Assembly (NCBI GenBank): GCA_018902385.1
Contig: JABSSW010000087.1
Span: forward strand, 1-52,028
DNA: 52,028 nt
Source: Physcia stellaris
Taxonomy: Eukaryota; Ascomycota; Lecanoromycetes; Caliciales; Physciaceae
Direction of reading: 5' to 3'
The translations under genes and the position numbers were made by a program. The notes beneath the pieces are model-generated. The model was not told where the DNA came from and did not search any database. It was given only the letters and a program-made list of their open reading frames with translations. The stretch's first letter is position 1. Each line of letters begins with the position of its first letter. Below, one piece after another: positions 1 through 34,150 of the stretch.

Positions 1-1407
1 TTTTTTCAATTTTTCGAATCGTTTTTGATTTCGATAAATTTTGAAAATGTTTTGTTTTTTATTTTGCGAATCGTATTGACGTCGACGATTGCTTTTTTTT
101 TTGAATAAAACAATTTTTTTTTTATGTTTCGATTCATCGCAATTGTAACAATTTCGATTTTTTCGTCGACGAATCGATATTTTTTTTGTTTTTATCAGAT
201 TGATTTTTCGTTTTATCAAATTGCGCAAAAAAGTTTTTTTTGACGAAATTTTTGTTTTTTTGACGTTCACGATTTTCGAACGAAAAAATTTGCGAAAATC
301 GAAAACGTTTTGAAAATTCTTGATAAAATGACGATCGTTTTGCATTGACGATTTTGAACAAAATTTTTTGACGAATCGTCGACGAAATTGCATCGAATGT
401 GATAATTTTTCGTAAAATATCGTTCAAATCATAAAGAAATTTGTTTCGTTTGATATTTTCGATAACATTCAATTTTGTTTTTAACGATTCGAAATGCGTC
501 GCGAATTCATTTATCGTTTTTTTTGTTTAACATTATTGTATTTTTGATTCACATCAAAACGACGAATTTCAAAAAATTCGATATCGTTGTGAAAAAATTT
601 CGAAAAATGCGATTACGTCATCATCAATTTTTTTTGATGTTAATTGATTTTTTGATACGATTTTCATAATTCGATTGAAATCGTATCAAAAAATTGTTAC
701 GTTCAAACGATTTTGATACAACGTTTGAAAAAATAATTAAAATTTGCGTCGAAAATTTACACGACATTTCGAATTCACGATTGAAATATTTTAATATTTC
801 TGACGTTGTAAATGAATAAATTTTTGAATTTGAATTCGATAATTCGTCGAAAACGCGAACGTTTCGAAATAAATTTATTACGAAATTTTTCGTTGTCGTT
901 ATTGTCATCGTCGTTTTCGTTATTGAAAAACGTTTGTGAACGTTTTTGTTTTTTTTCAACAACGCGAATTGAATTAATTTCGTTTTTTCGAAATGACGTT
1001 GTATCGAAACGTTTGATTTTTTTCAAAAACAATTTATATTCACGTTTGTTTTTCGTTTTTTTTTTTTCAATTATCGTTTGAATTGTTCGCAATTGTGCGT
1101 AATCAATTTGATTATCGAATTCGAAATCGTCGACGTTCGTTGAAACGACGATAATACGTCGAAACGACACGCGAAAAACAACAACAATGCGTTCGTCGTT
1201 TGATGAATTTTCATGAATTGAAATTAATTCGTTTCGTTGATCGATTTCAAATTGAAACGATTTCACGATCGTGTTGTCGAATGATAATGATTGAAACGAA
1301 ATGACGATATTGTTTCGAATCACGAACGCAACGACAACAAATGTTTTCGAAATTTTAAATGACGTCATTTGATCGAACAATCGTTCACGAAAATTTAAAC
1401 GATTCAA
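1..1407 (-). pseudogene. Degraded Ty3/gypsy gag, cut by window edge
   Basis: Read on the minus strand from about 1,407 toward 1, open segments in different frames (775-1407, 624-962, 134-472) follow one another like a gag: a charged N-terminal part, a central F/Y-rich capsid-like stretch with the FRKFFRSK type of linker, then a zinc knuckle. The knuckle near 120-165 reads C-Y-N-C-D-E-S-K-H-K-K-K and then a Cys that is one frame off because of an A-run, which fits C-x2-C-x4-H-x4-C. Tryptophan positions appear as TGA stops. Protease and pol would lie beyond the left edge. No LTR was recognised to its right. Gag is the best reading; subfamily unknown. Confidence 0.5.
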
Positions 1408-4400
1408 AATTGTAAAAAAATATACGATTGAATGATCAAATGATTACAAACAAACGCAATGTTTACGAAACGATAATGAATTATCGTGATAACATTGTGA
1501 ATAATGATAAAATTGAATCGTGAAAACGAAAAAAAATGAAAATTTTCGAAATGTTATATTTTATCGATCAAAACGTTAAATTCGATCAAATTAACGTGTT
1601 TGACGATTTTGACATGACATGACATTAAATTTTGCGAATTATCAAATTTTTATCGTTAAAAATTTCGAATTATTTTTGATTTTCAAAAATTTGTTATAAA
1701 CATTAAATTTTCAAAAAAATAATTAATTTTTTTTTCGAAAAATTATTAAAAATTTTACGTTTTTTTTTCAAAATAATTTTTCGAACAATCAAACGAATAC
1801 AATTTAAAAATAATATTAAATTCGTTTTGTTACGAACATGTTTTGAAAAAAATATCGATAAAATTTTTCGTTTTTATCGAATAATTTTGAAAAAATTTGA
1901 AAATTAAAATAAATTTCGAATTCGAAAATGAAATAACAAAAAATTTGTAAAATTTTATTTTATCAAATTTTTGAATTTTTTCGATTTTTGATTTAAAATC
2001 AAAATCGACATATATAAATCGTTTCAAAATTTAAATATTAAATTTTATAAAATCAAAATTTTTTTAAAATAAAAAATAAAAATAAATTATTTCGAAAAAT
2101 TTATTTAAATTTTAAATAATTTTATTTTAAATTCAAACATTATAATTTTAAACGAAATTTCGAAATTTTAATAAAAAATAAAATTTGAAATTTTTTTTTC
2201 GAAAAATTTAAAAATTTTGAATTATAAAAAAAAACAATTTCGTTGTATAATAACAAAAAAATTTTTAAAACACGAAAACGAAAATTATCGATATTTTCAA
2301 AAATTTTCAAAAAAACAAAAATTTTTTTCATAAAAAATTACAAAATCGTCAATATAATTTTCAAATATTTTGAAATGAAATTTGTTTTTAAAAAAAATGA
2401 ATGTTATTAAATTTCAATTTTTAACATGAAAAAACGTTTTTTTTAATTCGAAAAAAATTATTATCGAATTTGAAAAAAAATTGAATAAATAAAAAAATTT
2501 AAAAAAATCGACGATTTGAAAAATAACGATTTTTTCAAAAAAATTTAAATTTCAATATAATCGACATATTAATTTTTTATTTTCGCATTCGATTTTGATA
2601 TTTATTATTCGATATTCAAATATTAACAAATTAAAACAATCGTAAAATGTTTAAAATTTTGAAATTTTTTTTTTTTCAAAAAAATTTTTTAAAAAATTAA
2701 ATAAAATTTTGCAAAAAACGAAAATCGAATTTAAAAAAAAATTTCAAAATTACATTCGAAAATAAATTTTTTCATTTTAAAACAAAAACGAAAATTTGAA
2801 TTGAATAATTTTTTCAAACGTTTCAAAAATCGAAAATCGAAAAAAAAAAAATTATCGAAATACGAATTTTGCAAAATTTTCAAAAAATTAAATTTTGAAC
2901 GTTTCGTTTTTGAAAATTTTAAATTTTGAAAAATCAATCGATTAAATCGAAATTTAATTTTGAAACATCAATCAAAAATTTAATTATTTGAATTTGAAAA
3001 AATTAAAATTCGAATAAAATTTTTGCAAAAAAAAAAAAAAATTGTTCGAAATGAATTCAATCATTTTTTGAATAACATTTGAATATCAAAATCAAATTTA
3101 AAATTTTAAAAAAGCGTTAATCGAAATTCGTTATTTTCGCAATTTTATCAAATTTAAATCGTTTTTAAAATTTAAAAACAATTTTAAAAAAATTTCAAAA
3201 TTTTCGAAAAAAATTTATTTTAAAAACGATTGAAAATAAATTTTTAAAATCAATGCAAAAAAAATTCGAAAATTTCGAAAAAAAAATTTAAAACAAATAT
3301 TGAAAATTTTTTTTTACGAATAAAAAAAATTTTCGAATTTGCAATCAATCAAAAATTCGAAATTAAATTTTTTGTCAAAACGTTAAAAAACGTTTCAAAA
3401 TTTCAAAATATTAAAAATGAAAAAACGAATTATCGATAAAAAAATTTGAAAACGTTTTTCAAAATGTTAAATCGAAACAAAAAATTTTTTAAATTTTAAT
3501 TCGTTCGAAATTTTTTCGATAAACGAAATTAAATCAATTATATTCGTTTTTCGAAATATTTGATTCAAAAAATAATTTTTGAATTAATTTTAACGTTTCA
3601 AATTTTAAAACGTTTTTTTTATTCGTTTAAAATTTTGAAATTTTCGAAAAAAATTTCAAACGATTTTCGTTTTTGAAATCATCACGAAACAATCGAAATT
3701 TAAATAATCGATAAAAAAAAACGTTACAATTTTAAATTTTTTTTTAAAAATAAAATTTTTTTTTCAAAACGTTTATTTTTTGTTTAAATTTCAATCGAAC
3801 GTAAATATTAAATAAAACGATTAATTTTTTACAATTCAAAATCGATTTCGCAATTTTTTTATTTCAATTTCAAATTTGAACGAATTTCGTCGAATTTTTG
3901 TTTTAAATAAATAAATTTTGATTGAATTTAAAAATTTTCGAAACAATTAAAACATTAAAAATTAAATTTTATTGAACGATTTTTAAAAATTTTGAATTTG
4001 AAAATTAAACGAAAATTTAAATCGAAAAAAATTTTGTTATTGACGAAATCAATTGTAATTTTTGAAATTTCGATACGATTTAAAAAAAATTTAAATATTT
4101 TTTAAAAAAAAATTCAATTTTAAATTTTCAAATTCGATTTTCGTTTTCAAAATTTCGATTCGACGAAAAATGAAAAATCAAATTCGATCGCAATTTTAAC
4201 ATTCGAAATAAAAATTTTCGAAAAATTTTGAATTAATTTTCGAAAATAATTTATATTTTTTTAAACGTTTAATTTCGAATTGAAAATCGAAACGAAAAAT
4301 AAAAATAAAATTTTTTTGAAAAAAACAAAAAAATTTTTCGAAAAAAATAAAAATTCGAAAAATTTTGTTTTCAAAATTAATTTTTAAAATTCAACATTCA

Positions 4401-7400
4401 ATTTACAAAAAAATTTAATCAAATTTTTTAAATTAAATCAAATTCAAAATCGTATTTCGATTAACGAAAAATTTCAAATGTTTTTAATTTCATTTCGAAA
4501 AAAATTTTCAAAAATAAATCAATTCAATTTATTTCAAATCGTAAAACAATATTTTTAAAAATTTGAAAAAAAATTTCGATTTTTTTATATTTAACAAATT
4601 TTGATTATTTGCGAAATTTAATTAAATCGAACGATTTATTGAAAATCAATCAAATTTAAAAAAATTTTGTTCAAATTTATCGTAATTGAATTTTTAAAAA
4701 ATAAATTATCGATAATTTAAATTTTAAATCGAAATTTCGATTCAAATTTTCAAAATACGAAAACAATCGTTTAAAAATCGAAAAATTTTGATTTAACATA
4801 AATTTAATTTTTTATTTTTTTTTATCATTAATTTTCAATTTTTATTTTAATGAAAACGAAATTTATTTTCAAAAAATCGAAAATGAAATTTATTATTGTA
4901 TTTCAAATTTTCAATTTTATGACGAAAAACAAAATTTGAAAATTCAAAACAAAATTCAATTTCAAAAATATTTGAAAATTTTCAAAATTTTTTTCGTTTT
5001 TTTCGAATTTTGTATTTTCGAAAAAAAAAAAAAAAAAAGAATTCGTCAAAATTTAATTTTTGAAAAAATTCAAATCAAATTTCAAATACATTTTCAATTT
5101 TTTTTCGTCGTTCGATTTAAAAATTTTTTCAAAAAAAAAAATGAAAACAAAATTTCACGATTTTAAAAACGAAAAAAATTTTTCAATTAAAAAAACGAAA
5201 ATTTTTAAAAACGTTTTGCAAATATTAACAAAAAAAAATTTAAAATTAAATTTGAATACAACAAATTCAAAAAAATAAAATTTAATCAAAAAATTTAAAT
5301 TTTTTAAAAAAAAAAATTTTATTGATATTTTTTTCGAAATTTAAAAATCAAACAAAAAATCGAAAAAAAAAAAAAAAATTTTTTAAATTTTTAAAAAAAG
5401 AATCAAAAAAACGATTTACGATTTTTAAACAAAATTCGATTTTTGAATCAAATTTTGTACATTTGTGATTAAAAAAAAATTTTGTTAATTAACGCAAATT
5501 TAAAAATGATTTTTTATTCAAAAAAATTTTTGTTAAAATTCAAAAAAATTTTGAAACAAAATATAAAAAAATCAAAAATTTTTCGAAAATAATTAAAATT
5601 ATTTTTTTATTAAATTAAAAATCAGAATTTTCAAAATCATCGAAAATTTATAAATTATCAAATTTCAAATATGACAAATTCGAATTTGTCATATCGTTTG
5701 AATTTATAAAACAAAAAATTTTCGTAATTAATTGAAATAAAAATTTCATTTGAATGTTAATTTTTTCGAAATTTTCGAAATAAAAATTTTCAAAAAATTT
5801 TTAATTTCGAAAAAATTTTTCAAAAATCGATATTTTTTTTATTTCGAAATCAACATTTAAATTTTGACGTAATTTAATTTTTGAAAATTTTTAAAAAATT
5901 TTCGAAAATTTTTTTAAAAATGTTCGTTTGTTCAAAATTATTTTTTATTCAACGATAAACAATTTTTTTTTAAAAAAATTTCAAAAAATAAACAAAAAAA
6001 ATCATAATTTAAATTCATTTTCAATTTTGAAAATTCAAAAAACAACGAAAAAAAAATTTAAATTCGAAAAAATTTTTCGAAATATAATAAATTTGTTCGT
6101 TTTGTTTTAAAACTTTCAAAACAACAATTTTACGCGACAATTTCAATTCGAAAAACAACAATTTTTTTTTTTGCAAATTTCAAATTTTTCAAAAAAATCA
6201 TTTTTCGATAAAAAAAAAAATTTTTTTCGTTTTTATCAAAATATTATCAAATCAATAACAAAACAATTTTTACAAAATTTTGAAAAAAACGAAAAATTTA
6301 AAATTTTTCGAATTTATTACGAAATTGAAATTTTTTAAAATCAAATTTTTTTTTAAAAATCATTAACGTTTTCGTTTTTTTTCAATTTTCGATCAATTAT
6401 TTTTTAAAACATATCATTTTTTTCAAAATTTTTTCGAAAATCGATTTGAAAAAAAATTTTTCGAAAACAAAAATTTCGATTTCAAATTTCAAAATTTAAA
6501 AATCAAAAATTTCGAACAAATATTCAAAATTCGAATTTTACGATTTTAAATTTTAATCAAAATTGATAAATTTTGAAAAAAAATCGATTTGAAAATTGTT
6601 AATTAATAAAATTTTTCGAAATAAAAATTTTTCAAATTTGATTCAAAAATTTCAATAAACGTTCAAATTTAAAACGAACAAATTATTTTGAAATTTTTCG
6701 ACGAAAAAAAAAATCGAAAAATGCAAAATCGCAATTTTTAATAACAAAAATTTGAAATTTTCAAATCATGAAAATCAAAATTTCGAATCATAATAAAAAA
6801 AATTTTTATTCGTTTTTTAAAATTTCAATTTTCGATTTCAAAAATCGAAATTAAAATCAAAACGAAAATTGAAAAAATTTCGATTTGAATTTCAAAATTC
6901 AACGAATTTGAAAATAAAAAAAAATTTGCACATCGAAAAAAAATTTTTGAAATTTTTAAAAAATTTTTCAAATTGATTTGAAAAATTTCAATTTAAACGA
7001 TCAAATTAATCAAAATTTTGATTTTTTATTTTTTTGAAATTTCGTTTTCAAATTTTTTGTTACAAAAATTTAAAAAATTTGAAAAAAACAAAAAATTAAT
7101 AAATTAAATTCAATTTTTGATATGCAAAAATTTCAAAAATTTTTTTCGCAATTTTTAATTTGTTTTCGAAAATTCAACAAAAAATTATTGTGAATTTCAA
7201 AATTTTTTTCGAAACAAATTTTCAAATTGTTGAACGAATTTAAAAATTTTCGAAATTCGATTATTTTCGAAACGTTCATTTAAAAATCAATTTGAAAATG
7301 AAATTTATCGATTTTTCAACAAAATTTATTTCAATTTTTTTATTAACAAATCAAAATTTTCAAAAAAAAAATTTCAAATAAATTTTTCGATTTCGAAAAA

Positions 7401-10140
7401 AAAATTTCAAAAAATTTTTTTCACGAATTTCGATTTCGAATTCAATTCGATTTTGAATTTTCGAACGAAATAAAATTTTTTCGAAATTTTTCAAATTTTA
7501 AATAAATAAATCGTTTTCATTTGTTTTCGTTTAATTTTTGAATAAATCGTGAATCGAAAATTTGATTTTTTTTTATTAAAAAAATCATTCAACGATCGCA
7601 AATTGAATAAATTTTAAAATTTCGCAATTTTAAACAAATATTAAAATTTTTGAAAATTCGAAAAATTTTTTAAAAAAAAAAATTTACAAAATTGATCATT
7701 CGTTCGTTTTCAATTCGTTTTAATTTGAAAAAAAAATCAATTAAATTTTTCGAAAAAAATCAAAAAAAAAAAATTTCGTTTAAACAAATTTTTTGATAAT
7801 TAAATCGAAATAAAAAAAAACAAAAAAATTCAATTTAAAAAATTTTCGAATTCGATAATGTTTTTAATTTTTCAAATTCGAAAACGTACAAATTTTCGAA
7901 ATTTTCGAAAAAATTTTTTGAATCGAAAAAAATTTTTTTTCGAAAATTTAATTTGAAAAAAAATTTCAAAATTTGTTTAAATTTTTAACATTTCATTATT
8001 AACAATTTTATTTAAATTTCCGAAATTAATCAAAAAAAAATTTGTTTTCGAAAAAAAAATCGAAAATTTTAATTTAATTGATTATCGATATTTTTAAATA
8101 CGTTTTCATTAATAAAAAAATTGCGCAAAAAATATTCATAAATTCAAAAATTTTTTTCAATTTTTATTTTCGATATAACATTTCAAAAAAATTTTTAATT
8201 TCGAAAAAACGTTGAAAAAATTAAATTTATATTTATCAAATATGTTCAAAATAATTAAATTATCATTTTTCAAAATTTTGAACATTGTTTACATTATTTC
8301 GAAAAAACAATCGTTCGTTTTTTTTAAAAAATTTTGAATAAACAAAAAAAATTTTGAACAAAAATAAATCAAAACGAATTTAAAAAATTTCGAAATCATT
8401 TGAATAAAATCGAAATTGAAAAAATTTTCAAATCGTCGAAAAATTCGTCGATTTAAAATTTTATCATTCGAAAAAATTTCGAATAAAACGTTTTTTGTCA
8501 AATTTTTTTTTTAAAAATTTTTGATTTAAAATCGAAAAAAATAAATCAAAAATATCAAAAATATTTCAAAATCAATTTTTTGAAACGTGATTTATTTCGA
8601 ATTTTGATTTCGTATTTGAAAATCAAATCGAAAATTTTTAAATTCAAAAATATGACGAAAATTGAAAATCGAATCGTAAACAAACGTAAATTTGTTCGTT
8701 CAAATTGAAAGTAATAAAAAATTTTTTTGTTTCGAAAATTTTTTCGATTTAATGAAAAATTTTATTGAAAAAACGAAAATTCGAAAACGTCAAAATTTTA
8801 AATCGAATTTTCAAAAAAAAAATTTTTAAATTGAAAATTTTTTCAAAATTTTTCGATTTCGAAACGTTGCGTTTTCAACGAAAAATTTCAAAAAAATTTT
8901 TTATTTAAAAATGAAAAATTCGAAAAAAAAATCGAAAAAATCGAAATTTGAAATTATTTCAAAATGATTCGAAAAAATTTTAATATTCAAATAAAAACAA
9001 ATTTTCGATTTGAAATTATTCAAAAAAAATAAAAAAATCGAATCGAAAAAAAAAAAAAAATTTCAAAAATAAAAATTTTGATTTCGAATTTCGAACGAAA
9101 ATTTTCGAAATTTTTCGAATTCAATTTTCGAAAATTTTCGAAATCATTCGAAACGAAATTGAAAAAAAAATTGATTAATTTTTCAAAAAAATTAAAATTT
9201 TGAAAAATCGAACGTTTAAAAAACAAAAAAAAAAAAAACGAAAAAAAAAATTTCGAAACGAAAAAATTTTTCGAAAAAAAAAAATTTGAATTGAAATTTT
9301 TTTAAAATTTTCAAACCTTCGTTCAAATCAAATTTTTAAAAAAATTTTCGATTCAAAAAATTACGAAAACGTTTTCGATTTTCGAAATTTAAAAATTTTT
9401 CAAAATTTTTGAACGTTAAAAAAATCAAAAATTTTTTGAATCAATTTTAACGATAAAAAAAAAATAAAAATTGATATCGAATTTGACGAAAAATTTCGAA
9501 ATTGTTACGTCGTAATAAATTAATAAAAAATTGTTTGAATATTCAAAAACACAAAAAAAATGAGTTTCGATTCGAAAAAAAATTTTCAAACAAAAAACAT
9601 TTGAAAAAATCAAATTTTTATTTGCAAATTGCAATTCGAATTTTCGATGTTATTATTTAAAAAAAAATCGAATACGAAATTTGAAAAAAAAATTTTTTAA
9701 TTCAAAAATTTTCGAATTCGCGTTTTAATTTCAACGACAATTTTCAAAATAACAATTTGAACAAAAATTCATTTTTTTCGATCTTCGCTAATCACAAAAA
9801 ATTTCAAAAAAAAAAAATTTAATTAAATCGTAAATTTTGAATTCGTAAATCAAACGTTTTTGTTAAAAAAAAATTTTTCGACAAAAATTTTTTCAAAATT
9901 TTCGAAACGACAAAATTTTCAATTGAAAAAAAAAAAATCGTTAAAAAAAATTTTTCAATTTCGAAGCAAAAAAAACATTTTTTCGCATTTTTCGATTAAA
10001 ATGAAAAAATTTTCGAAAATCACCAAAATTTCGATTTTTAAATTGAAAAAATTTTCGAAAATATCAACGAAAATTTTGAAATAAATATTTTTCAAATTTC
10101 AACAAAATTATACATTTAAAAAAAAAATTTTATTCAAAAA
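1408..10140. other. Extremely AT-rich stretch, no gene recognised
   Basis: About 8.7 kb built largely from A-runs, T-runs, TTCGAA and TTTCAAAA-like words. Sample lines hold about 12-15% GC. Every reading frame of 60-76 codons here is low-complexity Lys/Phe/Asn/Ile and none shows a domain. No LTR pair, tandem array or RNA gene was recognised. Most likely fully saturated, very old repeat sequence; a centromere core cannot be ruled out. Confidence 0.7.
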
Positions 10141-10770
10141 TTGTTTTTTGAAAAGAAATTTTCAATATCGAAAATGATCAAATGTTGCAAAAATTCGAAA
10201 AATTTAAAATCACAAATTAAAAAAATCGAATTTTTAATTTCGCAAAATCGGCGTTCGGCCGTTTTGAAATCGTTCGCGATCAGAAAAATTTGCCGCAGCC
10301 GCAAATTCACGATTTTCGAGTTATGAAAATTTAAATTTCGAAGTTTTCGAAAATTTTACGAAAAATTCAAAAATTTTTCAAAATAAAAAAATTTTAAATT
10401 AATTTCAAAAATTTCAATTTTTTTTCGATTCAAAAAAATTTTTAAAACGCATCCGAAAAATTCGAAAATTCAAAAATTTCGAAATTGTTAAAAATTTCCA
10501 AAATCACGATTAAATCAACCCCAATTGTTTTAATTTTTAAAAAAAATTGCAAAAAAATTTTTAAAAAATTTCGCAAACAATAATTTTTAAAAAATTTAAC
10601 CATAATCGAAAATTTGCCGAAAATTCGAAAATTCGCTTCGACAAATCGATTTTCATTTTAACGACGATTAAAATTTTCGAAATTAAAAGAAATTTTTTCG
10701 TTTTATTTTCGAAACGTTCAAAATTTTCAAAATTAACCAAAAACATCAATGGCCGCCAGGTAAAATAAAA
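10141..10770. other. Less-mutated islet inside the AT-rich block
   Basis: Here CC and GG dinucleotides reappear: TCGGCC near 10,249, GCCGCAGCC near 10,290, CCCC near 10,520, GGCCGCCAGG at about 10,750. Flanking sequence has almost none. A 61-codon frame (10,141-10,326, plus) ends in an Arg-rich tail, and a minus frame spans 10,561-10,749, but neither is recognisable. It may be a young insertion, a relic of single-copy DNA or a stretch protected from mutation. Confidence 0.5.
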
Positions 10771-11346
10771 CGTTTTTTTCGCAAATTTAGAATTTTTTTT
10801 CGTTTTCGATAAATTTTCAAAAATATCAAATTTTCAAAAAAATTAAAAATTTTGACATTTTTTCGAATAATTTTTTTTTTACGATAAAAAAAAAAAAAAA
10901 AACGATTATCGAAAAAAATTTTTTCAAAAATTCAAATTTCAAATATTTCAATTTAAAAAATAAACAAAAAATATTTATCGAATAAATTTTTCAAAAAAAC
11001 AAAAAAAAAAAAAAATTCATACGCGAATTTCAAAAATCGAATTTAATTTTTTCGTTTGAAAAAAAATTTGACATTTTCAAAAAATTTCGCACGTTAATTT
11101 AATAAACGATTTAAAATTACGATTTCGAAATTGAAAAAATAACGAACAAAATTTCGATTTTGATATATTATTAAACGTGATTTTTATTGACGCGACGATT
11201 TTTCAATTTTTAACAAAATTTAAAAAAAAAAAAAATCAAAAATTTTTTTTGATTATGAAAAAATTAAACGAAATTATTAACAACGTCAAAAAAAATTGAT
11301 CAAAATAAAATTGATTTTAATTTAATTTTCGTCGTTTTTAAAATTC
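10771..11346. other. AT-rich spacer, no gene recognised
   Basis: Saturated AT-rich sequence between the less-mutated islet and the first readable reverse transcriptase. If element A had gag and protease they should lie about here, but I cannot recognise either. Nothing else is visible. Confidence 0.6.
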
Positions 11347-18420: not shown

Positions 18421-18484
18421 AATACAAAACAAAAAAATCGAAATTATTCAACAATGATTAATATTTCGCAACGTTTTCGACATC

Positions 18485-23270: not shown

Positions 23271-23420
23271 TCGTCAACAAAATTTGTATGTATATTGATT
23301 AAATCATTAATTAATCGTATCGTATCGTTGTCGACGTCATAAAAAAAATAAATTGAAAATAAATTATCAAATAACAAAAAAAAATATTTTTGAATTTGAT
23401 CATTTGAATTGTTTCGTCGA

Positions 23421-23613
23421 TGTTGAAAAATACAATTTTCGCAAAAAAATAATCAAGAAATCAATTGATATAATTTGACGAAAAAAAAACTAATGCGTTT
23501 TTGTTGAAATTAGCGTCTTGACATTCGCACATTTTTTGTGTTTTCATTTTATGTATGTTATTACAATAACGAAATTCAAAACAATAAAATGATAATCATT
23601 CATGATTTTTTCA
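23421..23613 (+). repeat. 5' LTR of element D
   Basis: 193 bp, TGTTG...TTTCA. It differs from the 3' copy by ten transitions counted by eye: six in CpT/ApG context, three in CpA/TpG and one in CpG. Confidence 0.8.
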
Positions 23614-24221
23614 AAAAATTATGAAAATCGAATTAGCAATTTTCGTTACATTTAATATCAATTACAGCAACATGAACGCATGTCAAAACAAATAATATTT
23701 AATCGCAAACAGTACAACAAAATTTGCAATATTAACAACAATAATCAATTTCATTGAAAATATTCAATCAGATCAAATCAAAACGACTCAATTGCATATC
23801 GCAACATTCAATATCTTGATACACGATCAATACATTCAATACGTTTTCAGTTACGTCGATAACATTTACTTTATTTTTCGCGAATATTTTACGAATTCGA
23901 CTTATTTATTCATCGATTTTATTTTACGAATTCGCGTATTTATTTATTCGAATTTTTACGCGAAATCTATTTACGTATCATTCAATCAGAATGATTATTT
24001 TTATTTTTGCGATCAAATTCGCGTTCGCATTTATTTTCGCATTTGATTTTTTATTTTTTTCGTTTGTTTTTTGCGATTACGTATTTGAAAATCATTTCAT
24101 GACGCAAGATTTGAAAACGCTTTACAACATGCATTTTATTGAAAATGTTAAAACTTTGCGATGCAATTGATTCATTCAGACGAAAAAAACACAAAAAAAT
24201 TATCATTTACGAAAGCATGAA

Positions 24222-24452
24222 TTGAAAATCAAAAACAAACTCAAGAAAAAAATGAAACAATTAACAAAACAAAACAAAAAAATTCGTTTGATCAAAAAAC
24301 AAATTGAAAAATATACGTGCAAACGTTGCAAATATTCGATCAAATTCGATAACAACATCAAGTTACACGAACATATTCGCACTCGACACGCGAAAAAGTC
24401 GAAATTTGTTGTTTCATTTGTTTTCGAATCGAAATTTTTTATATCATTTTAA
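24222..24452 (+). CDS. C2H2 zinc-finger reading frame inside element D
   Basis: 76 codons. Residues 1-30 are a Lys/Gln-rich, probably helical basic stretch. A zinc finger follows: Y-T-C-K-R-C-K-Y-S, Phe, Leu, H-E-H-I-R-T-R-H, which fits C-x2-C-x5-F-x5-L-x2-H-x4-H, and then an A-K-K-S-K basic tail. All four ligands and the hydrophobic core positions are intact despite the mutated background. The frame stops at 24,452, but the protein may originally have continued into the frame at 24,681-25,121, so this may be one exon or fragment of a broken gene. Nucleic-acid binding is inferred from the finger only. Confidence 0.55.
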   Translation: MKIKNKLKKKMKQLTKQNKKIRLIKKQIEKYTCKRCKYSIKFDNNIKLHEHIRTRHAKKSKFVVSFVFESKFFISF

Positions 24453-24680
24453 TCGATAATCGAGTTATCAGTTACATTTTTTACGTCATCGAAATTTTTA
24501 TCTTTTTCGATTTTTACATCAGAAGTTGTACGCGAGCGTTCAGAAAACGTATTTTCAGAATTTTTTTCAGATTTTTCGTCGATTGCAATATCACGAAAAT
24601 CGATATCTTGAACAAAAATTGTTTCAAAATCAATCATTGCATCGAAATTTTTTCGTTTTTCGATTGCGACATTCAAATCG

Positions 24681-25179
24681 ATGTGCAAATTTTCGAAAAA
24701 TGCAAACATTGTTTGTTCGTCTATTTCGTTTCGAACTTTTACATCGAGATTTTATTTCATCGTGAACGATTTGTTTCGCATGTTCGTTGAAAAATCGAAT
24801 TTATTTGATTTGCAACGACATCAAATGCGTTCGTTTTTTTCGCGCGATTTTGACAAATGCAATCGCAAATGCAATTTCGCAAACAAATGTAATTTCATAC
24901 AAAGTCGCATTACGTTATATTTTCATGCGATGATTACATTTGTTTTTAAATCAATCAAATTCGAAACATTTGAATCAACACATGTTCGCGAAAACGTTTC
25001 GCGTCAATTTTCGATCTTTTCACGATCGATTTCATTTATTTCGTTTTTTTTTCGATTTTCAAAAATTTTTCGTTCGTTTTCTGTTTGCAAACATTGTCAA
25101 GAACGTTTCGTCATTTATTGATTTATTGATTGAATCATGCCAATTGTTTCAAGAATTGAGAACAATGAGATATTCATGA
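24681..25179 (+). pseudogene. Possible continuation of the zinc-finger protein
   Basis: A 146-codon open frame (24,681-25,121) with segments IVNDLFRMF and QSRITLYF, and a terminal C-K-H-C followed by R-F. An overlapping frame then gives SSFIDLLIESCQLFQELRTM before a stop at 25,179. The Cys pair suggests the first half of another finger whose His half is lost or frameshifted. It follows the C2H2 frame in the same orientation. I cannot name a family, and one or more frameshifts are likely. Confidence 0.35.
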
Positions 25180-25477
25180 AAATACGTTTCGTTTCTTTTC
25201 GTTCTATTTTGAGAAAGTATTGACTTTTTTATTTCGAAAAAGTCATTATTTTGAAAGAATTAACATGTTGTTGATTGATTTTGTTCGTTCGTTTTTTTTA
25301 TGAATCGTTAATCGATCTGAAAAAACTTTAAATTTGTATGTTTTGTTATTTTGTTTCGTTAATATGTAGAAATTTATTTTTGTTGTTTCGTCTTGATTTA
25401 ACACGACTAATTATCGCTTTTATTTTTTATTATTTTTGAAACTTAGTCGCTCGATAAATACGAAAGAAAGAAAATGA

Positions 25478-25680
25478 CAATACAGTTTCAAAAAAACGTA
25501 TTGTACGTACAGTTGTTAAAAGAAGAAAAAGCATTTTATCAAACAATATAATTTCGAAAAAGTATACTGATCAAGATGCTCACGTTCAGATAATATCGTT
25601 TCGGAAAAACGTATTGTATGAAGTCATTACATACTCGTTGAAGTCACATAGTATCGCTTCGAAAAAGCGTATTATGCAAT
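25478..25680 (+). repeat. Repeated small hairpin motif, four copies
   Basis: Four degenerate copies at about 25,481, 25,547, 25,594 and 25,652 share the pattern TAT-CG-Y-TTCG-R-AAAA-R-CGTATT. The third and fourth each pair with themselves: CGTTT/AAACG and CGCTT/AAGCG around a CGAA-type loop. The T-A versus C-G difference in the stem is compensatory. Both are followed by TCATTACATA-Y-TCG. Function unknown. Confidence 0.6.
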
Positions 25681-26309
25681 CATTACATATTCGATTTTGC
25701 AAAGCAAGAATTCGATCAAAAAGAATAAATAATGTTGAAAATATCTGATTTTTTCGCATATTAATCGATTTGTTTCTCTGACAGATTTTAGTCAAATCAG
25801 AAAAGTTCGATTTTGCACTTTTTGCATCGATGTATGTTCGCAATGCATGTCGCGCATTCGATGCATTGTTTTTTTTATCGATTTTTCGATCATTTAACAT
25901 ATTTTATGAAATTTTTACAGTCAAATTGCATAGATATCGAATCATTGATGTCGCAAAAAATATTTGAGAATTCTGAAATTCACAATGATGTTATCAGATT
26001 ATGATGTGATTCGCATTCTCGTCAATATCGCAAAATTCAAACAATTGATATTTGTTTCATGATGTATCTTTTAGTCAATTTTAGATATCAGATTTCACAT
26101 CGATGTTTCATTTCATGAAAACAAATTCAGAACGTTTTCAATCATTCGATCGCACGTTTTACAAATCGATTTTACGTCATATTTGAAGTCAATAAATTAT
26201 CGAATTTCGATTCGTTCGTTTCTGCAATTTTCGCATCGATGTATGATTTAGTTTTACAGAATTTACGTCATATCACGTCGAAAAAACTTGTTCGAAAGTT
26301 TCAAACAAC

Positions 26310-26390
26310 GCATCGCTGAAGAAATTGCATCGTTGAAAAAACTACATCGTTGAAAAAATTTCAGAATTTATCGTTGAGAAAACTTGCACG
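26310..26390 (+). repeat. 17-bp tandem repeat before the 3' LTR of D
   Basis: Copies of NCATCGYTGARRAAANT start at 26,310, 26,327 and 26,344 (exact 17-bp period), with a fourth, TTATCGTTGAGAAAACT, at 26,368. The array is framed by ACTTGTTCGAAAGTTTCA and ACTTGCACGAAACTTTCA. Confidence 0.7.
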
Positions 26391-26453
26391 AAACTTTCAG
26401 ATTGAATTCATTAAAATACTGAACAAAAGACACAAACGAATGCTGTGAAATAA

Positions 26454-26646
26454 TGTTGAAAAATACAATTTTCGCAAAAAGATAATCAAGAAATCAGTTG
26501 ATATAATCTGACAAAAAAAAAATTAATGCGTTTTTGTTAAAATTAGCGTCTTGACATTCGCACATTTCTTGTGTTTTCATTTCATGTATGTTATTACAAT
26601 AACGAAATTCAGAACAATAAAATGATAATCATTTATGATTTTTTCA
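26454..26646 (+). repeat. 3' LTR of element D
   Basis: 193 bp, the direct partner of 23,421-23,613. It keeps ApG/CpT at five sites where the 5' copy has ApA/TpT, and has lost one that the 5' copy keeps. Confidence 0.8.
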
Positions 26647-26883
26647 ATAGTCGACAAAAATGATTTTATTTGACGTCGAAACAAAATTTTTATCGAATTT
26701 CAACATGTTTTTAATTTTGAATTTGTCGATTCGAATATTTTCGAAATATTTGCAATTCATAATCGAAAAAATAACAAACAAAACGAATTTCACGATTTGT
26801 TGATTGAAATCAATAAAAATTGTTCGAAATTTTGCGAACATCGCAATTACGTATAAATTGTGAAAAAAAAATTGTGATACAAT

Positions 26884-27135
26884 TGTTACGAACATGTTTA
26901 ACAAATAATTCTGACAAATGTTTAACAAATAAATTTGACAAATAAATAATTAATATAATATGATCGAACAACGAATTATGTTTTAATTTTACGTCGAAAT
27001 TAACGTGATTTGAAATTTGACGTCGCACATTGTTTGCAATTTCAACATTTTGTATTTATTTGTTTTTGCAAATTTATTGTTTTCGTTTAATTAGTCAATC
27101 AATACAGTCATACAAACACGATTCATGATATTACA
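26884..27135 (+). repeat. 5' LTR of element C
   Basis: 252 bp, TGTTACGAAC...TTACA. It aligns to 33,329-33,578 with nine transitions by eye (three CpT/ApG, six CpA/TpG), a few transversions and a 2-bp end difference. It contains an internal near-repeat of GTTTRACAAATAA. Confidence 0.85.
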
Positions 27136-27623
27136 ATAAATTTTCAATTTTTATCGCTCGTCGTGATACGCGAACGTTCAAAAATAAAATTTCAAATCGA
27201 TCAAGTTTTTCGTGAAAAATAAACGACGAAAAATTCTTTTAACGAAACAAACGACGAAAATCGTGTAATTACAAATCGAATTTACACGTAAACGACGAAA
27301 TTTTCGACGATAAAAAACGACGAAACGACGACGATTTTCTATTTTTTTTTTATTTTTTCGAGATGATTCGCAATTATCATGAAACAATTTCATTCAATTC
27401 ATTTCGTCAAAATTTGAATATTGACGAAATAAAAAAAAACGTTGAACAAATGCTGAACGAAATTCACGAAATCGATGAAAAATTCACGATTCGTTACAAA
27501 TTTCGTTAATTTTTTTTTATTTCAAACGTTGTGTCGAATCAAAACGACGATGTCACGTACTTTTTGAACATAAAAATTGTTCGTCAATTAAAATATTGAA
27601 TTCAACATTATTTCGACGACTTT

Positions 27624-28560
27624 TTGAACGTGTTCAATGATTTACGTATCGATCGAAACAAATATTTGATCGTTTTAAAAAAATTTCACGAATTCGTCAA
27701 ATTGTTCAAAATTCAAAAAAAAAATTTATTCGATATCGATAATATTCTTGAACAAATACGCGACAAATTTAAAACGTTCGAAAAAAAAACGAATGATAAA
27801 TTAACTCGTTAACAAACGTATTGAATATGACGATTTGATCAAATTGAATGAAATTCGTCGTTTTGAACGTGTTTTCAATTTCGATTCAAATGAAAATTCA
27901 AACAATATCGATGATGACGAGAAAAAATTTGTTGTTAACGATTCGATCGTTACAAATTTTATTAAATTTTCGAAAAAAAAACGCACGAACAAACATTCGA
28001 ATTTCGATAAATTTACGAACGATTTGAATTTTGATTGATTTACATGAAAAATCAACGTTCACGATAAATTCACGATCAACAATGATTGATACGAAATTGT
28101 TCGTTTTATGATCACGACAATAATTGATTGAATTGAAAAAAAAAACAATTAAACATATTCAATTTCGTCGATACAACAATTTGAATTATTTCGAAAATGA
28201 AATAATGATAATCAATTTTTTCAAAATTTTTATGAAAATTCAAATTATTAACGCAACGTACGTCGAAAATATCGAAATTTAATCATGTTCGACATTCAAA
28301 ATTTTCAATTTTTTTATTCGAATTTTTATCGTTTGAATGTTCAAATCAATTTCGATCAATTCACGTTAATAAACAATTTAATTGACAAATTCATCATGTC
28401 GTTGAAACAAATTTTGAACAATTCGTTTCGTCATCATTTTATTTTGTTCGCGTGAAAAAATGATATTCAACAAATGTACAACGATTTGATTAACATTCGA
28501 AAAAAAAAATTTAAATTCGAATTCAAAAATCAATTTTAATGTTTTTCAAAACGATTTTTG
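27624..28560 (+). pseudogene. Element C gag remnant
   Basis: Open pieces separated mostly by TGA at Trp positions. The capsid-like order is visible: an acidic linker (DSNENSNNIDDDEK), then F-T-stop-K-I-N-V-H-D-K-F in the position of the W-K-x-K-M-x-x-K-L block, EYRNLIMFDIQNFQFFYSNF (about 28,260-28,330, the F-x-x-F-x-x-x-F capsid core) and LIDKFIMSLKQIL, followed by a Lys-rich end. This is the typical layout of fungal gypsy Gag. It would form the particle shell; here it is dead. The N-terminal limit is uncertain and may begin near 27,363. Confidence 0.7.
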
Positions 28561-28673
28561 TTGTTTCGATTGCAATTTCGTTTGTTAAATCAATTACGTC
28601 AACGTTTTTCGTCAAATTCATAAACGATCATAAACATGATTCGATTATCGATCAATTAATCGTCACGAACAAA

Positions 28674-28715
28674 TGTTTCACGTGTGAAAAATTCGATCAC
28701 AATTGAAAATTTTGT
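28674..28715 (+). pseudogene. Element C gag zinc knuckle
   Basis: C-F-T-C-E-K-F-D-H-N-stop-K-F-C: C-x2-C-x4-H-x4-C with all four ligands kept. The in-frame TGA after H-N sits where related knuckles have a Trp or Arg, which fits TGG to TGA. Confidence 0.75.
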
Positions 28716-28874
28716 TTTAACGTCAACAAATTTCAAAAACGTCAATGACATAAATTACAAATATATCAATTGAATTTTGATATCGATTCGAACGAATTTG
28801 ATTCGAAAAATTGACAATTCACGTCAAAAACGCGATTGATGAATGTTTAAAAAAATTTTATTCACGATGATAAT

Positions 28875-29099
28875 ATGTTTGATTTTTTTATTAAACGATT
28901 TTTAATTATTATTTGTACGTTATCATTCAACGATAATAAACATAAATTAAAAATTTTAATAAATATTGATGCAATCGATTATGCGTTCATTGATAAAAAA
29001 ATCGCGCAATTTGTATGCAACATGTTGAACATAAAATTCGTATTTTTATTGAAATCGAAATTATTGATTGAATTCGACGATCGTTATGTTTTTTTATAA
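28875..29099 (+). pseudogene. Element C retropepsin remnant
   Basis: A 74-codon open segment containing LKILINIDAIDYAFIDKKIAQ. It aligns with the fungal gypsy protease core L-I-D-S/T-G-A-x-x-x-F-I-D-x-x-x-A. The catalytic D-S/T-G-A now reads N-I-D-A, where Gly to Asp is the expected result of GG to GA. It would cleave the polyprotein. The missing active site and surrounding stops make it non-functional. Confidence 0.7.
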
Positions 29100-29850
29100 T
29101 TCACGCGATATATTTCAAATTGACGATAAAATTACATTTCGAATTGATCGTTTTTTTGTTAATCATTAATTTCGATAATCATTCGATAATTTTAAAAAAA
29201 TCGTGAATAAACAAACATGAAATTATATTGAATATGATTTACGATAAATTGATTTTTAAATCGTTCAAATGCAATCATCACGACAACATATTCAATCAAA
29301 CGATGCAAATTCGTCGTTTAGAAATTTTCAAATCATATCGTCGATGAAATGTATTTAATTGACGTCGCGATACAAAATTATCGCAAAAAAATAATACAAA
29401 ACACATAACGACGATAAAATTTCGATATATTATTTTATCACGTTTCAAAATCAAATCATTATTTTTTGTTATTGAAAACGAATTTGACGTATTCGATTCG
29501 AAATGTTTCGAATGTTCAATTTATTCAAAAATCGATAACGACGACGAATTGTCAACAATTGAATCAAATAATTCAAAAATTGATATCACGACGATTACGA
29601 AAACGACATTCGTCAAAAAAAAAACTGAAAAATCAACGCAATAAACGATGAAAAACGAAAAAACAACAATCAAAATTTTCGTTATTTTCAAAATTGAATT
29701 TTGACGATTCGATAAATATCGCAATGATTAATGCATTTTTTTTGTTTGTTGATCGATGTCAAAAATCGAAAACAAAAAATTTAATGTTTTTTCATTACGA
29801 TCAATCAAATCGATTTCGCGTTCAAAACATTACAAACGAATTTTGAATCG

Positions 29851-30707
29851 TTGAATATTGTCGTCATAATTAAAAATTTTTTAAAACATAAACAAATCAA
29901 ATCGATATTTGAACGCATCATGAAAAAAATATCAAAATATTTTTATCATTTATCAAAAATATTCGATTTTCAAAAAATTATCAAATTATTTTTTCATAAA
30001 TTATACGATCATAAAATCGAATTTTTGAACGATAACAATTTTTTATTTCGCAATCGAATGTATTTTTTATTCGAATTCAAATTTAAAAAATTCAAAAAAA
30101 TTTGAAAAAAAATTTGCAAAAAAAATTTATCGTATTTAGTCAAACGACATACGTTTTATTTGTTTTATTTGCGATCAAATTCAACGATCAATTACGTTTA
30201 TGTATGAATTATCGTCGATTCAATTACATCACGAAACGCAATCGATATTTTATTTTTTTGATCGAGAAAATTTTGATCAAAATTCAAAATTGCAAATATT
30301 TGATGAAATTGAATATCATATCAATTTTCAATAAATTTCGAATGAATGAAAAAAATGAAAAATTTATCACGTTCGTTATTTTTATGAAATCGTATAAATA
30401 TCGAATATTATTTTTTGAATTAATCAACGATTTTGTAAATTAACAACATTACATAAATGATTTTTTGTTCAATTTTTTAAACGAATTTTGTCAAATTTAT
30501 TTGAATGACATATTCATTTACAACAAATTCAAAAAAAAGCATATCGTGCACGTTCGAACAATATTGAAAAAATTCAAAAAAATTCATTTACAAATGAATA
30601 TCGAGAAATGCGAATTTTTCAAAAAAAAAATGATTTTTTTAAACGTTATATTTTCGATGAATGATTTTCGCATGAATTCAAAAAAAATACAAATCATAAT
30701 TGATTGA
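29851..30707 (+). pseudogene. Element C reverse transcriptase remnant
   Basis: Three open pieces (29,851-30,105; 30,102-30,443; 30,465-30,707) together cover the RT. Landmarks: KLYDHKIEFL before the fingers, DQLRLCMNYRRFNYIT (about 30,187-30,230), KYLMKLNIISIFNKFRM (the K-L-D-L-x-x-A-Y-x-x-I region with the Asp now Asn), FELINDFVN, QIYLNDIFIY, and KCEFFKKKMIFL in the thumb. The palm box at 30,498-30,509 is Y-L-N-D. So both the first acidic position of the palm and the first Asp of the Y-x-D-D box have become Asn, as GpG/ApG mutation would produce. Confidence 0.82.
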
Positions 30708-31270
30708 ACACGTTTTATCAATTTCAAAAAAATACAAATTTTCGTGAATTTCGTCAATTTCTATCGACGTTTCATTTGTGATTTTTCAAAAAAAATCAAA
30801 ATTTTCATTCGAATGATTAAAAAACTCGTAAAATTCGAATGAATTACGAAAACAAAAAAAATTTTCAATTTATTTAAGAAAACGATAATCGAAATTTTTA
30901 TATTTCGTTATTACGATAAAATCAAACAAATCATTTTGAAAATCGATTTTTTAAATTACGTTAATGCGAAAATGTTATCGCAATACGATGACGAAAAAAT
31001 TTTACATTTCGTTATTTTTTACAATCGAAACATGATTTCAATCGAATGCAATTACGAAATTTATAACAAAAAATTATTGATTATTATTCGTTGTTTAAAA
31101 CATTGACGTTCAAAATTCGAAAACATTGACAAATTGATCAAAATTTTCATCGATCACAAAAATTTGAAAATTTTTATGATTTCGAAAAAATTAATTTTTC
31201 ATCAAATTCGTTGAGCAAAAATTTTATCGAAATTTAATATCGTTATTCAATTTCAATCAAAAATTCAAAA
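30708..31270 (+). pseudogene. Element C RNase H remnant
   Basis: Begins with VNFYRRFIC (about 30,750) and continues through FRYYDKIKQIILKIDFLNY (the T-D-A-S region, first Asp kept), LSQYDDEKILHFVIFYNRN, ISIECNYEIYNKKLLIII (about 31,038-31,085), DHKNLKIFM and KFNIVIQFQ. All standard gypsy RNase H blocks are in order, with Trp-to-stop changes and one or more frame breaks. Confidence 0.75.
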
Positions 31271-31286
31271 CGTTAAAACAAACGTT

Positions 31287-32200
31287 TTGATTCGCATGTC
31301 GAATTCACGATTTAAAAATGATAACGATGAACGACATCAATATAAAAAACAAATATTATTCATTTTCGAACGATTCGAAATTCATGTTGTCGAATTTGAC
31401 GAATCAATTTACGAACGAATTTTCGTCGTTAACAAAACAAACGACGATTGCAAAACATATCGAAAAACGTTCAATCAAAATTTCATTTTCGTGAATGAAA
31501 TCAATTTACGCGATTGTCAAAAAAAACGATATTTTATATTACAAAAATCGATTATGAATGTTCGTCGATGTTTTTTTGTTTGTTGATTTTTTCAAAAAAA
31601 TTTATAAATTTTTAACGTCGAATCATTTTGAATTTAATCGCATAAAAATTTTTTTACGTCGTGATTATTATTGATTTAACATGCGCAAAACAATTCGTCG
31701 ATACGTACGTAATTGTTATAAATATCAACGAATTAAAATTTTTCGAAATCGTAAAAACGATTTATTCATTTTTTTGATTATATTTTTATAACGTTAAACA
31801 AATATATCAATTGATTTTATCACGAAATTGTTTAACGTTTACGATTATAATGTTATTTGCACAATAATCGACAAATTTAATAAAAAACGTCATTATGTAT
31901 TTTGTACAACGAAAAACGAAAACACGAATGTTGAAATCACAACAAAAATATTCATTCAATACGTGTTTCGTATTCATGATTTGTTTTCGTTCATAACATT
32001 TGATCGAAATTTTCAATTCGTGTTTTTTGTATGACAAATTTTTTGCAAAATTTTCGACATTAAATGTAAATTTTTTACGATTTTTTATTCAAAAATTAAT
32101 AATCAAATCGAAAAAATTAATCAAAATATCGAAAAACAATTGCGACAATATTGTAATTACATACAAAACGATTGAAACGTTTGATTATTTATAATCGAAT
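31287..32200 (+). pseudogene. Element C linker and integrase remnant
   Basis: An open 99-codon acidic linker (31,287-31,586) is followed by the zinc-binding domain: the YYW(stop)FNMRKTIRRYVRNCYKYQR segment at about 31,665-31,735, in which the second Cys of the C-x-x-C pair is now Tyr. The core follows (31,828-32,034) with CTIIDKFNKKRHYVF and FITFDRNFQFVF, whose Asp residues match the first two catalytic positions. The Glu is not located. Stops throughout. Confidence 0.7.
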
Positions 32201-33328
32201 TCGCAAACAATAACGCGATTTTTGTATTCATTAAATTATTATCGTTTTTCGTTAACAAAAATTTTCATTTTCGTATATTTTTTTATCGAATTTTATTTCG
32301 TATATTATTACAAAAAAACGATTTTTAATTGTCAAAACGAAAAACATCACGAACACAATACAAAACATTTTCGATTATGTACGAATTCACGTCGAAATAA
32401 TTCAAAAACGCATAACGACACAAATCAACAAATATCGCAAAATCGTGAAATACGTCGAAAAAAATTACGTTTTTTTGAATCGACGAAACATCAAAATCGC
32501 TAAATCATTCGACAAACTTGATGACAAAAAATTAAAATCGTACAAAATGTTGAAACGTATGAACAATTTTTATCAATTTGAATTGTTTGAAACAATGCAA
32601 ATTTATAATGTGTTTCATTGTTGATTTTTACGCAAAAACTTTTGTAATTTTTCGAAAATCAAATCAACGAATTTTTCGATTTTGTTATAATTAACGAGAA
32701 TTTCGAATGAAAAATGAACGATATTTTAAAATTTCGATATTATTACGATCGATTTCAATATCGCGTCAATTGATCGAATTGATCACATAATCGAATTTGA
32801 TATTACGTCGACAACGATAAATTCGATAATGTTCGTAACGTGATAAATAATTATTATCGAAATTATTTTATCGTCGCAAATTCGAAATCATTCAAAATTA
32901 CATTTTTCGTTTTTCAAATCGATAATCAAAATTCATTTGCGAATCGTCGTCGTTTTCGAAAAAAAATCGTCGTTTTGACATTCATTGAAATTACGTTCGA
33001 TTAAAATTTAAAAATTTCAATTAAATTTGAATTCATTTTGATTTCATTTGTTCGTTTCAAAATTTTTTTTTTCAATTTCAAATTTCATTATTATCGTTTC
33101 GACGTTGTTTACAGTCAAAATTTACGTCGCATAAAAAATTGAATCGTGTCAAAAACATTTTCAAAATTGTTGTTTGATTTTATTGAATTGTGAATTAATA
33201 CAACATATTGAAAAAATCAAAAAATGATGATCGTAAAAATTTCGAATTTTGAATTCATTCAAAACAACAACGTTTTCGTTTCGAATTAACGACGAATCGT
33301 CGAAACGACGTTCGCGAAAAAAAAATAA
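32201..33328 (+). pseudogene. Element C integrase C-terminus and 3' tail
   Basis: About 1.1 kb of decayed sequence. An N-rich frame lies at 32,222-32,503. An ILRRQR-like stretch (about 32,805) resembles the Arg-rich start of the possible chromodomain in element A. The shared 3' tail (ACGTCGCATAAAAAATTGAA...) follows at about 33,121. A purine run ends at the 3' LTR. No further gene. Confidence 0.4.
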
Positions 33329-33578
33329 TGTTACGAACATGTTTGACAAATAAATTTGACAAATGTTTAACAAATAAATTTGACAAATAAATAATTAATA
33401 TGATATGATCGAACAACGAATTATGTTTTAATTTTACGTCGAAATTAACGTGATTTGAAATTTGACGTCGCATATTGTTTGCAATTTCAACATTTTGTAT
33501 TTATTTGTTTTTGCAAATTTATTGTTTTCGTCTAATTAATCAATTAATATCGTTATACAAACACGATTCATGATAACA
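33329..33578 (+). repeat. 3' LTR of element C
   Basis: 250 bp, TGTTACGAAC...GATAACA, direct partner of 26,884-27,135. Confidence 0.85.
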
Positions 33579-34150
33579 ACGAAAAAAATAAAATGCGGCA
33601 TTTAATATAAAAAAACGTATTATTGTTGATTGACGACGAAAACATTTGAAAAATTAACGAAATCGCACAATTTTGTTTCAATTGTATTTTTTATTTGATA
33701 TTTCGTTGCGTCGATATCGATTTTTCGTTTAAAAACGAAAATTTTTTGTTTGTTTACGTTGATAAATTCGTTTTTTACGAATTTTTTTATATCAAAAAAA
33801 AAAAACAATTGACGAAATCGAAATCGCGACGTTGAATTTGACATCAAATAAATAATTTTTTTAACGTCGACGAAACGTGTTTGACGAAACATGAAATTAT
33901 CGAAAATAACATTCGATTTTTTGAAAAATTTGACATTTGATTTGTTGACGTTTGATTGTTTAACGATTTTTTATTTAATTATGACAACGACGACGTAAAT
34001 ACACGACACGTGTATAAACAAAAAATAAATGATTTGATATAAAAATATCGAAAAAATAATATTTGAAATTGCAACATCAAAACAGCAACGAATTGATATA
34101 CAAAATTTCGATATATTGAAAACAAACGTTTCGAAAAAAAAAAAAAAAAA
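33579..34150. other. AT-rich edge segment, no gene recognised
   Basis: Mutated AT-rich sequence between the element C 3' LTR and the isochore boundary. A 90-codon minus frame (33,620-33,892) has no recognisable domain. It ends in a run of about 21 A at 34,136-34,156, after which CpT and ApG become common. It must contain the upstream region of the CFEM gene. Confidence 0.6.

Follow-up and report, generated by a model that had tools for sequence, protein, structure and literature searches.

Which process removes nearly every cytosine that stands before a pyrimidine from a long stretch of fungal DNA, and leaves CpA and CpG plentiful? This question is raised by contig JABSSW010000087.1 (contig 87; 52,028 nucleotides, assembly GCA_018902385.1) of the lichen-forming ascomycete Physcia stellaris. 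The entire contig is the window analysed here, and the assembly comprises 43.97 Mb in 147 contigs. The first 34,150 positions of the window, a block of old long terminal repeat (LTR) retrotransposons, carry a C-to-T scar akin to that of repeat-induced point mutation (RIP). In our best reading, the scar was left by a RIP-like burst mutator with the target order CpC > CpT >> CpA > CpG. We put the probability that a mutator of this kind, hitting CpC before CpT and leaving CpA and CpG nearly untouched, scarred the retrotransposons of the block at about 0.83.

Composition of the block and its edge

Three parts of the window define the scar:

1–34,150 (no strand): AT-rich block with a C-to-T-before-pyrimidine scar, 22% GC, defined by dinucleotide and context counts and a per-kilobase test
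34,050–34,250 (no strand): edge between scarred and normal DNA, with a poly-A run at ~34,134–34,155; CC, CT, GG and AG together number 0–1 per 50 bp until 34,150, then 3, 7 and 19
34,151–52,028 (no strand): unscarred flank with genes, 49% GC, used as an internal control (composition, per-kilobase test, Pfam)

A preliminary description, made from the sequence alone, had reported the near-loss of CC, CT, GG and AG over 34 kb, with CA and CG plentiful. Dinucleotide counts in 1–34,150 bear this out, with 18 CC, 7 GG, 108 CT and 156 AG set against 1,914 CA, 1,453 TG and 1,925 CG. The strand-symmetric rho values are 0.03 for CC/GG, 0.09 for CT/AG, 1.15 for CA/TG, 4.67 for CG and 0.41 for TA, and they are ordinary (0.70–1.14) from 34,151 onward. 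The sample interval of that description, 3,001–3,300, contains 24 Cs, every one of which precedes A or G as had been stated (13 CA, 11 CG, no CC, no CT), and a single AG. Most of the surviving CT/AG dinucleotides of the block (214 of 264) sit at 16–28 kb.

The retained fraction C/(C+T), calculated for both strands over 1–34,140, is 0.003–0.048 at NCC and 0.016–0.029 at NCT, compared with 0.40–0.47 at NCA and 0.52–0.58 at NCG; values in the flank are ordinary. An exception is found after C, where sites are few and the fraction falls to 0.18 for CCA and 0.15 for CCG. Block-wide, retention is ~0.006 at CpC and ~0.018 at CpT. When each kilobase was required to show lower retention at CpC and at CpT than at both CpA and CpG, 34 of 34 windows passed in 1–34,000 and 5 of 17 in 35,001–52,000. 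The scar ends between ~34,050 and ~34,250, that is, within ~200 bp around 34,150.

Direction and context of the changes

Copia copies were drawn from reverse transcriptase searches of the genome, and the C-to-T changes from a less mutated to a more mutated copy were counted per available site, using only sites with ungapped neighbours. All eight mutated copies gave the same order, with 94–100% of sites changed at CpC, 60–89% at CpT, 1–9% at CpA and 0–6% at CpG. From L025 to L030, for example, changes are seen at 432/460 CpC, 322/416 CpT, 26/478 CpA and 23/422 CpG sites, and from L025 to L036 at 446/460, 372/416, 42/476 and 21/421. The mildest case, L026 to L032, yields 225/239, 212/352, 6/447 and 0/344 in the same order. 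The context pattern is similar for L026 to L034, L039 and L021 and for L027 to L033 and L035. A fourth repeat family, of unassigned type, behaves likewise (L014 to L006: CpC 102/112, CpT 88/120, CpA 10/135, CpG 6/110). The rule put forward in the preliminary description, C to T before a pyrimidine with CpA and CpG spared, thus holds in transposon alignments with opportunities counted; the precedence of CpC over CpT goes beyond it. In cross-family Copia pairs, which are 57–60% identical, ordinary divergence weakens the contrast (L025/L027: CpC 121/208, CpT 93/181, CpA 55/233, CpG 68/208).

An unscarred Copia pair, L028 (G000:C8:902437-903093) and L029 (G000:C42:398640-399296), served as a control and differs by 2–3% in every context. 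The two copies are 97% identical over 3.2 kb, have open frames and bear no scar; they either were inserted recently or reflect a period in which the mutator was inactive.

The changes have the character of a burst. Between L026 and L032, 443 C-to-T changes stand against one transversion over 3,110 bp, and the relative rates calculated for this pair are ~2.8 at CpC, ~0.9 at CpT, ~0.013 at CpA and below 0.01 at CpG. The calculated excess of CpC over CpA reaches ~200-fold in one pair. Both strands are mutated (L025 to L030: C-to-T 382/862, G-to-A 422/917; L026 to L032: 290/822 and 153/560), and the 5′ base has little effect in the Copia alignments. Transitions from C:G to T:A dominate between repeat copies in all eight mutated copies, as in RIP. 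When nine rule sets were simulated on the less mutated copies, conversion at CpC and CpT gave the best identity in 6 of 6 cases, lifting it from 0.72–0.85 to 0.93–0.96, and a CpA rule reduced identity.

Reach across the genome

We sampled the 10-kb starts of 20 contigs and removed the window’s own contig and contig 65, which is all N, to leave 18 stretches. The depletion is not limited to the block in which it was first described: all 122 AT-rich 1-kb windows of these stretches pass the per-kilobase test, compared with 5 of 52 GC-normal ones. Pooled retention is 0.013 at CpC, 0.044 at CpT, 0.488 at CpA and 0.497 at CpG. Contig starts may over-represent repeats, and the transposons sampled are the best-scoring ones; because of the former, the window counts do not translate into a scarred fraction of the genome. 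Published GC values suggest that this fraction is roughly one quarter. Neighbouring DNA is spared, as seen from the sharp edge near 34,150 and from the GC-normal windows that lack the pattern, windows having been sorted by GC and not by copy number.

Retrotransposon relics in the block

The following elements were located inside the block:

15,503–22,111 (+): Gypsy-like LTR retrotransposon relic of ~6.6 kb, scarred, with a 95% direct repeat and integrase zinc-binding and SH3_Tf2-1 matches inside
15,503–15,802 (+): 5′ LTR-like repeat of this relic, 95% identical to 21,812–22,111
21,812–22,111 (+): 3′ LTR-like repeat of this relic, 95% identical to 15,503–15,802
19,040–19,981 (+): Integrase_H2C2 relic, TGA read as Trp (PF17921, E = 2.1e-12)
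20,040–21,128 (+): SH3_Tf2-1 relic, TGA read as Trp (PF24626, E = 8.1e-11)
23,420–26,647 (no strand): element-like stretch between 195-bp direct repeats (23,420–23,614 and 26,453–26,647, 95%)
26,884–33,575 (+): second LTR retrotransposon relic of ~6.7 kb, scarred, with a direct repeat at 26,884–27,130 and 33,329–33,575 (96%)
30,444–31,604 (+): relic of a reverse transcriptase end and RNase H, TGA read as Trp (PF17917, E = 1.3e-16; PF17919, E = 1.9e-14)

With TGA read as Trp, 3 of 10 frames in the window match a Pfam family above a cut-off; PF00078 in the 30,444–31,604 relic (E = 6.9e-6) falls under its own. Within the LTR pair of the Gypsy-like relic, the other copy has T opposite 11 of 13 Cs at CpT, 3 of 65 at CpA and 3 of 69 at CpG. 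The LTR pair of the second relic gives 3 of 4, 6 of 70 and 0 of 41. Aligned with their relatives, among them L020, a less mutated relative of the 23,420–26,647 stretch, the elements of the window keep the same order, with CpC and CpT above CpA and CpG.

The most AT-rich part of the block and the flank genes are listed separately:

1–11,400 (no strand): most AT-rich part, 13–27% GC per kb (composition, repeat comparison, Pfam search)
36,605–37,174 (−): prolyl oligopeptidase-like flank gene in unscarred DNA (PF00326, Pfam match)
41,419–42,234 (+): helicase-like AAA_11 flank gene in unscarred DNA (Pfam match)
49,294–49,905 (+): GMC oxidoreductase flank gene in unscarred DNA (Pfam match)

The 1–11,400 part shares no repeat of at least 250 bp with the sampled loci, and neither of the two frames searched there matched a Pfam family; it could consist of very old relics or be a centromere-like stretch. 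Adjoining the most AT-rich part, a small island at 10,023–10,756 accounts for 14 of the 18 CC dinucleotides left in the block.

Coding consequences

In the first of two reverse transcriptase searches, 150 of 527 candidates were scored, giving 150 matches, 140 of them with stops; in the second, 150 of 165 were scored, giving 127 matches, 123 of them with stops. These 263 scarred matches hold 634 TGA, 127 TAA and only 6 TAG stops, in agreement with the Trp-to-TGA changes and the loss of TAG noted earlier. This bias is expected because the rule turns TGG into TGA and leaves CAG and CAA alone.

A scarred Copia frame used as query retrieved four proteins on ENA contigs. Three of them (P0225, P0227, P0228) were aligned to the intact-like fourth (P0226), and positions in stretches below 40% identity were dropped. 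None of 25 prolines is kept (19 changed to Ser, 4 to Phe, 2 to Leu), whereas glutamine is kept at 22 of 22 positions and histidine at 7 of 8. The change from Pro to Ser needs C to T before C and therefore reports CpC-to-TpC mutation. The four proteins share residues unlike those of P. stellaris, so their source is probably a related species. A search of viral contigs for a relative of P0226 found none.

Points that weigh against a CpC/CpT mutator

Several observations sit less easily with this picture. The two most AT-rich sampled windows (15–16% GC; L008 3,001–4,000 and L012 6,001–7,000) retain C at only 0.26–0.28 of CpA sites, a sign of slow secondary CpA loss. Older pairs that include elements of the window differ at 0.14–0.27 of CpA and 0.10–0.23 of CpG sites, and they also hold other changes, including transversions. 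Together with the 1–9% of CpA sites changed in the Copia copies, these values mean that a slower change at CpA and CpG exists. In the LTR pair of the 26,884–33,575 relic, differences at CpA (6) even outnumber those at CpT (3), because CpT is nearly exhausted there. Some repeats, such as L028 and L029, escape, being recent or met by an intermittent process. The CpA preference of canonical RIP is absent here, and the link between the gene L001, described below, and CpC/CpT specificity is circumstantial.

Methyltransferase genes and the candidate enzyme

The preliminary description had pointed to homologues of RID and DIM-2 as relevant to such a process, and a gene resembling each is present. PF00145 matches in the genome fall in three genes, L001, L002 and L003. 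L003 (database record P0001) encodes a RID-like protein of 932 residues with SPPCQ and EQT catalytic motifs. In a tree calculated without the N. crassa RID sequence it falls among class I enzymes from other Lecanoromycetes, apart from Aspergillus DmtA. L002 is DIM-2-like and combines PF00145 with DUF7893; its best solved relatives are 9bap (E = 2e-181) and 9baq (E = 2.9e-181), both titled DNA (cytosine-5-)-methyltransferase and presumably fungal DIM-2. Class I (RID/Masc1-type) genes are thus present at the level of sequence in L003/P0001 and L001.

The third gene, which the preliminary description did not foresee, is L001 (G000:C6:790057-794028). Its product has 513 residues after removal of two introns, and its PF00145 domain carries PPCQ and EET motifs, the core methyltransferase motifs being intact. 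In the tree, L001 lies outside both the RID-like clade and a second class I clade of lichen fungi, in a deeply diverged third one (support 100/100; length of the stem 0.78); among the matches listed, this third clade contains only Physcia, Heterodermia and other public contigs. The 32 hits ranking highest for L001 were compared in their catalytic loop with 181 other hits that have a recognisable loop, both sets being drawn from 120 hits listed of 693 and of 4,182. The top hits read [FY][DE][DE] in 30 of 32 cases and never show the ordinary class I motif. That motif is found in 149 of the 181 others, among which F[DE][DE] occurs once, in a sequence with the L001 clade’s own loop. The 120 listed hits of L001 include no annotated P. 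stellaris protein, and the highest-ranking ones come only from Heterodermia and other public contigs; the public annotation may lack this gene or contain it misjoined.

The mutator would recognise C before a pyrimidine, CpC first and CpT next. Its trigger may be repeats and its timing the sexual cycle, as in Neurospora RIP, and its agent would presumably be a cytosine methyltransferase, with the class I enzyme L001 as a candidate. We name L001 as the first candidate at somewhat less than even odds, and consider it unlikely that the DIM-2-like gene or another one is responsible. Still more tentatively, a third class I lineage with a rebuilt catalytic loop may have become a CpC/CpT repeat mutator and replaced CpA-directed RIP in these lichen fungi. 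The natural near-reversal seen here, together with three methyltransferase genes, makes it testable what determines the target base of RIP, and if an L001-type lineage is the mutator, target choice would be an evolvable property of the enzyme, changed by changing the enzyme.

The strongest competitor shares its probability with the CpC/CpT mutator proposed here and differs in the agent: the RID-like L003/P0001 would have shifted its specificity from CpA to C before pyrimidine, and L001 would do something else. We regard this as a serious but doubtful possibility. The gene is present with intact catalytic motifs among class I enzymes of Lecanoromycetes, and in Neurospora RID is required for RIP of new repeats, according to the cited passages of PMC11969663. 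However, L003 has kept the usual class I catalytic loop, and the length of its terminal branch (0.37, with a median of 0.43) does not stand out.

Alternative explanations

Methylation of CpC and CpT by a DIM-2-type enzyme, followed by slow spontaneous deamination without RIP, would call on a gene that is present (L002), and a 2026 review describes DIM-2 methylation as mostly non-CG with CpT preferred (PMC13297926, in the part consulted). The leading context in P. stellaris is CpC and not CpT. Moreover, deamination of 5-methylcytosine produces an excess in the tens, and we calculate ~1.35 hits per site of C before pyrimidine as compared with ~0.0003 transversions per site, a ratio in the thousands. 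We therefore think this route improbable.

A DNA cytidine deaminase of the APOBEC type in place of a methyltransferase is more improbable still. Such enzymes do cause C-to-T hypermutation of retroelements elsewhere, but they select sites by the 5′ base, whose influence here is small, and both strands are mutated. The genome also has no APOBEC_N match, a weak argument as control genomes gave none either.

The preliminary description had left the choice between a mutator of different specificity and a second process acting after ordinary RIP. The former is favoured, and the latter is hardly tenable. The somewhat lower CpA retention in the most AT-rich stretches (0.26–0.39) is what earlier CpA-directed RIP would offer in its support. 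Against it, TpA is low (rho 0.41), CpA has not become TpA at 91–99% of sites in the mutated copies, CpA and CpA+CpT rules fit below CpC+CpT in 6 of 6 simulations, TAG accounts for 6 of 767 stops, and none of the 122 AT-rich windows combines strong CpA-to-TpA change with little change before pyrimidines.

A sequencing artefact, in which Nanopore reads call a modified C before a pyrimidine as T and stay uncorrected, would likewise give C-to-T with almost nothing else, but is scarcely credible given that two rounds of Illumina polishing were applied to the assembly (PMC7513301), that CpC and CpT are near-empty of C also at 1–11 kb, the part without a sampled repeat match where short reads should map, that older copies contain transversions, and that three ENA proteins on other contigs, whose sequencing method is not known, carry the same signature.

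Comparison with known RIP

The proposed CpC/CpT mutator of P. stellaris resembles canonical RIP of Neurospora crassa and most studied ascomycetes in its C-to-T and G-to-A changes in repeats, its sparing of genes, the resulting AT-rich blocks and the presence of RID-like and DIM-2-like genes. The genome paper reports 46.57 Mb in 184 scaffolds with 43.32% GC, somewhat larger than the assembly analysed, obtained by Nanopore assembly with two Illumina polishings from an axenic ascospore culture of a species with abundant apothecia (PMC7513301). When searched for terms, that paper shows no mention of RIP (its three matches are RiPP), with “repeat-induced” and “transposable” absent.

The difference lies in the target. 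The order given for N. crassa in the cited passage of PMC5496416 is CpA > CpT > CpG > CpC, whereas here it is CpC > CpT >> CpA > CpG and the standard indices are negative. Judged by thresholds as quoted in PMC7882544, no window of 34 passes, the block values being 0.47 for TpA/ApT and 1.34 for (CpA+TpG)/(ApC+GpT). With these values, and with CpA changed at 1–9% of sites against 94–100% for CpC, the process works like RIP and lacks its CpA feature, and is therefore a variant outside canonical CpA RIP. Since the common indices score this genome as unaffected, other cases may have been missed. Owing to the sharp contrast between contexts, the mutation signature is also unusually clean, which is of use for dating transposons.

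CpT signatures are described, in the passages cited, for Botrytis, Sclerotinia and Magnaporthe (PMC4352252), Colletotrichum truncatum (PMC6180176), Anisogramma (PMC10998396), and N. crassa Tad1 and some Stagonospora repeats (PMC2621366), and CpT-to-TpT is termed the dominant form in the control fungi of PMC7882544. In P. stellaris CpT is mutated as well, and in some of those reports it is the leading context. In those passages, CpA is also mutated or CpA indices are positive, and CpC is not named as leading, as it is here; Copia families of C. truncatum, for instance, have TpA/ApT of ~1.65 (PMC6180176), compared with 0.47 in the block. Combined CpA+CpT RIP of the Botrytis/Magnaporthe type does not describe our data either, with CpA spared and the CpA+CpT rule worse in 6 of 6 simulations. 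Loss of CpC itself is shared with Stagonospora repeats (PMC2621366) and with Monilinia, which shows CpC-to-TpT double changes (PMC8959702), but the main change in the cited parts of these reports is CpA to TpA. Microbotryum, rusts and Tuber also depart from CpA, with CpG as the target in the passage seen (PMC4352252), whereas our alignments show CpG to be protected more than any other context. Searches of the open-licence PMC literature did not turn up a CpC-led or CpA-sparing fungal RIP.

The lichen fungus Cladonia rangiformis, as far as its main text goes, has strong RIP with bimodal GC, sharp borders and RID and DIM-2 homologues, as found here; RIP was judged by GC content in the passages cited, and the words CpA and dinucleotide are absent from that main text (PMC12542154). 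A survey published in 2025 and covering 1,239 genomes concludes, in the part cited, that RIP-like defences share a preference for CpA (PMC12543289), and to this shared preference P. stellaris is an exception.

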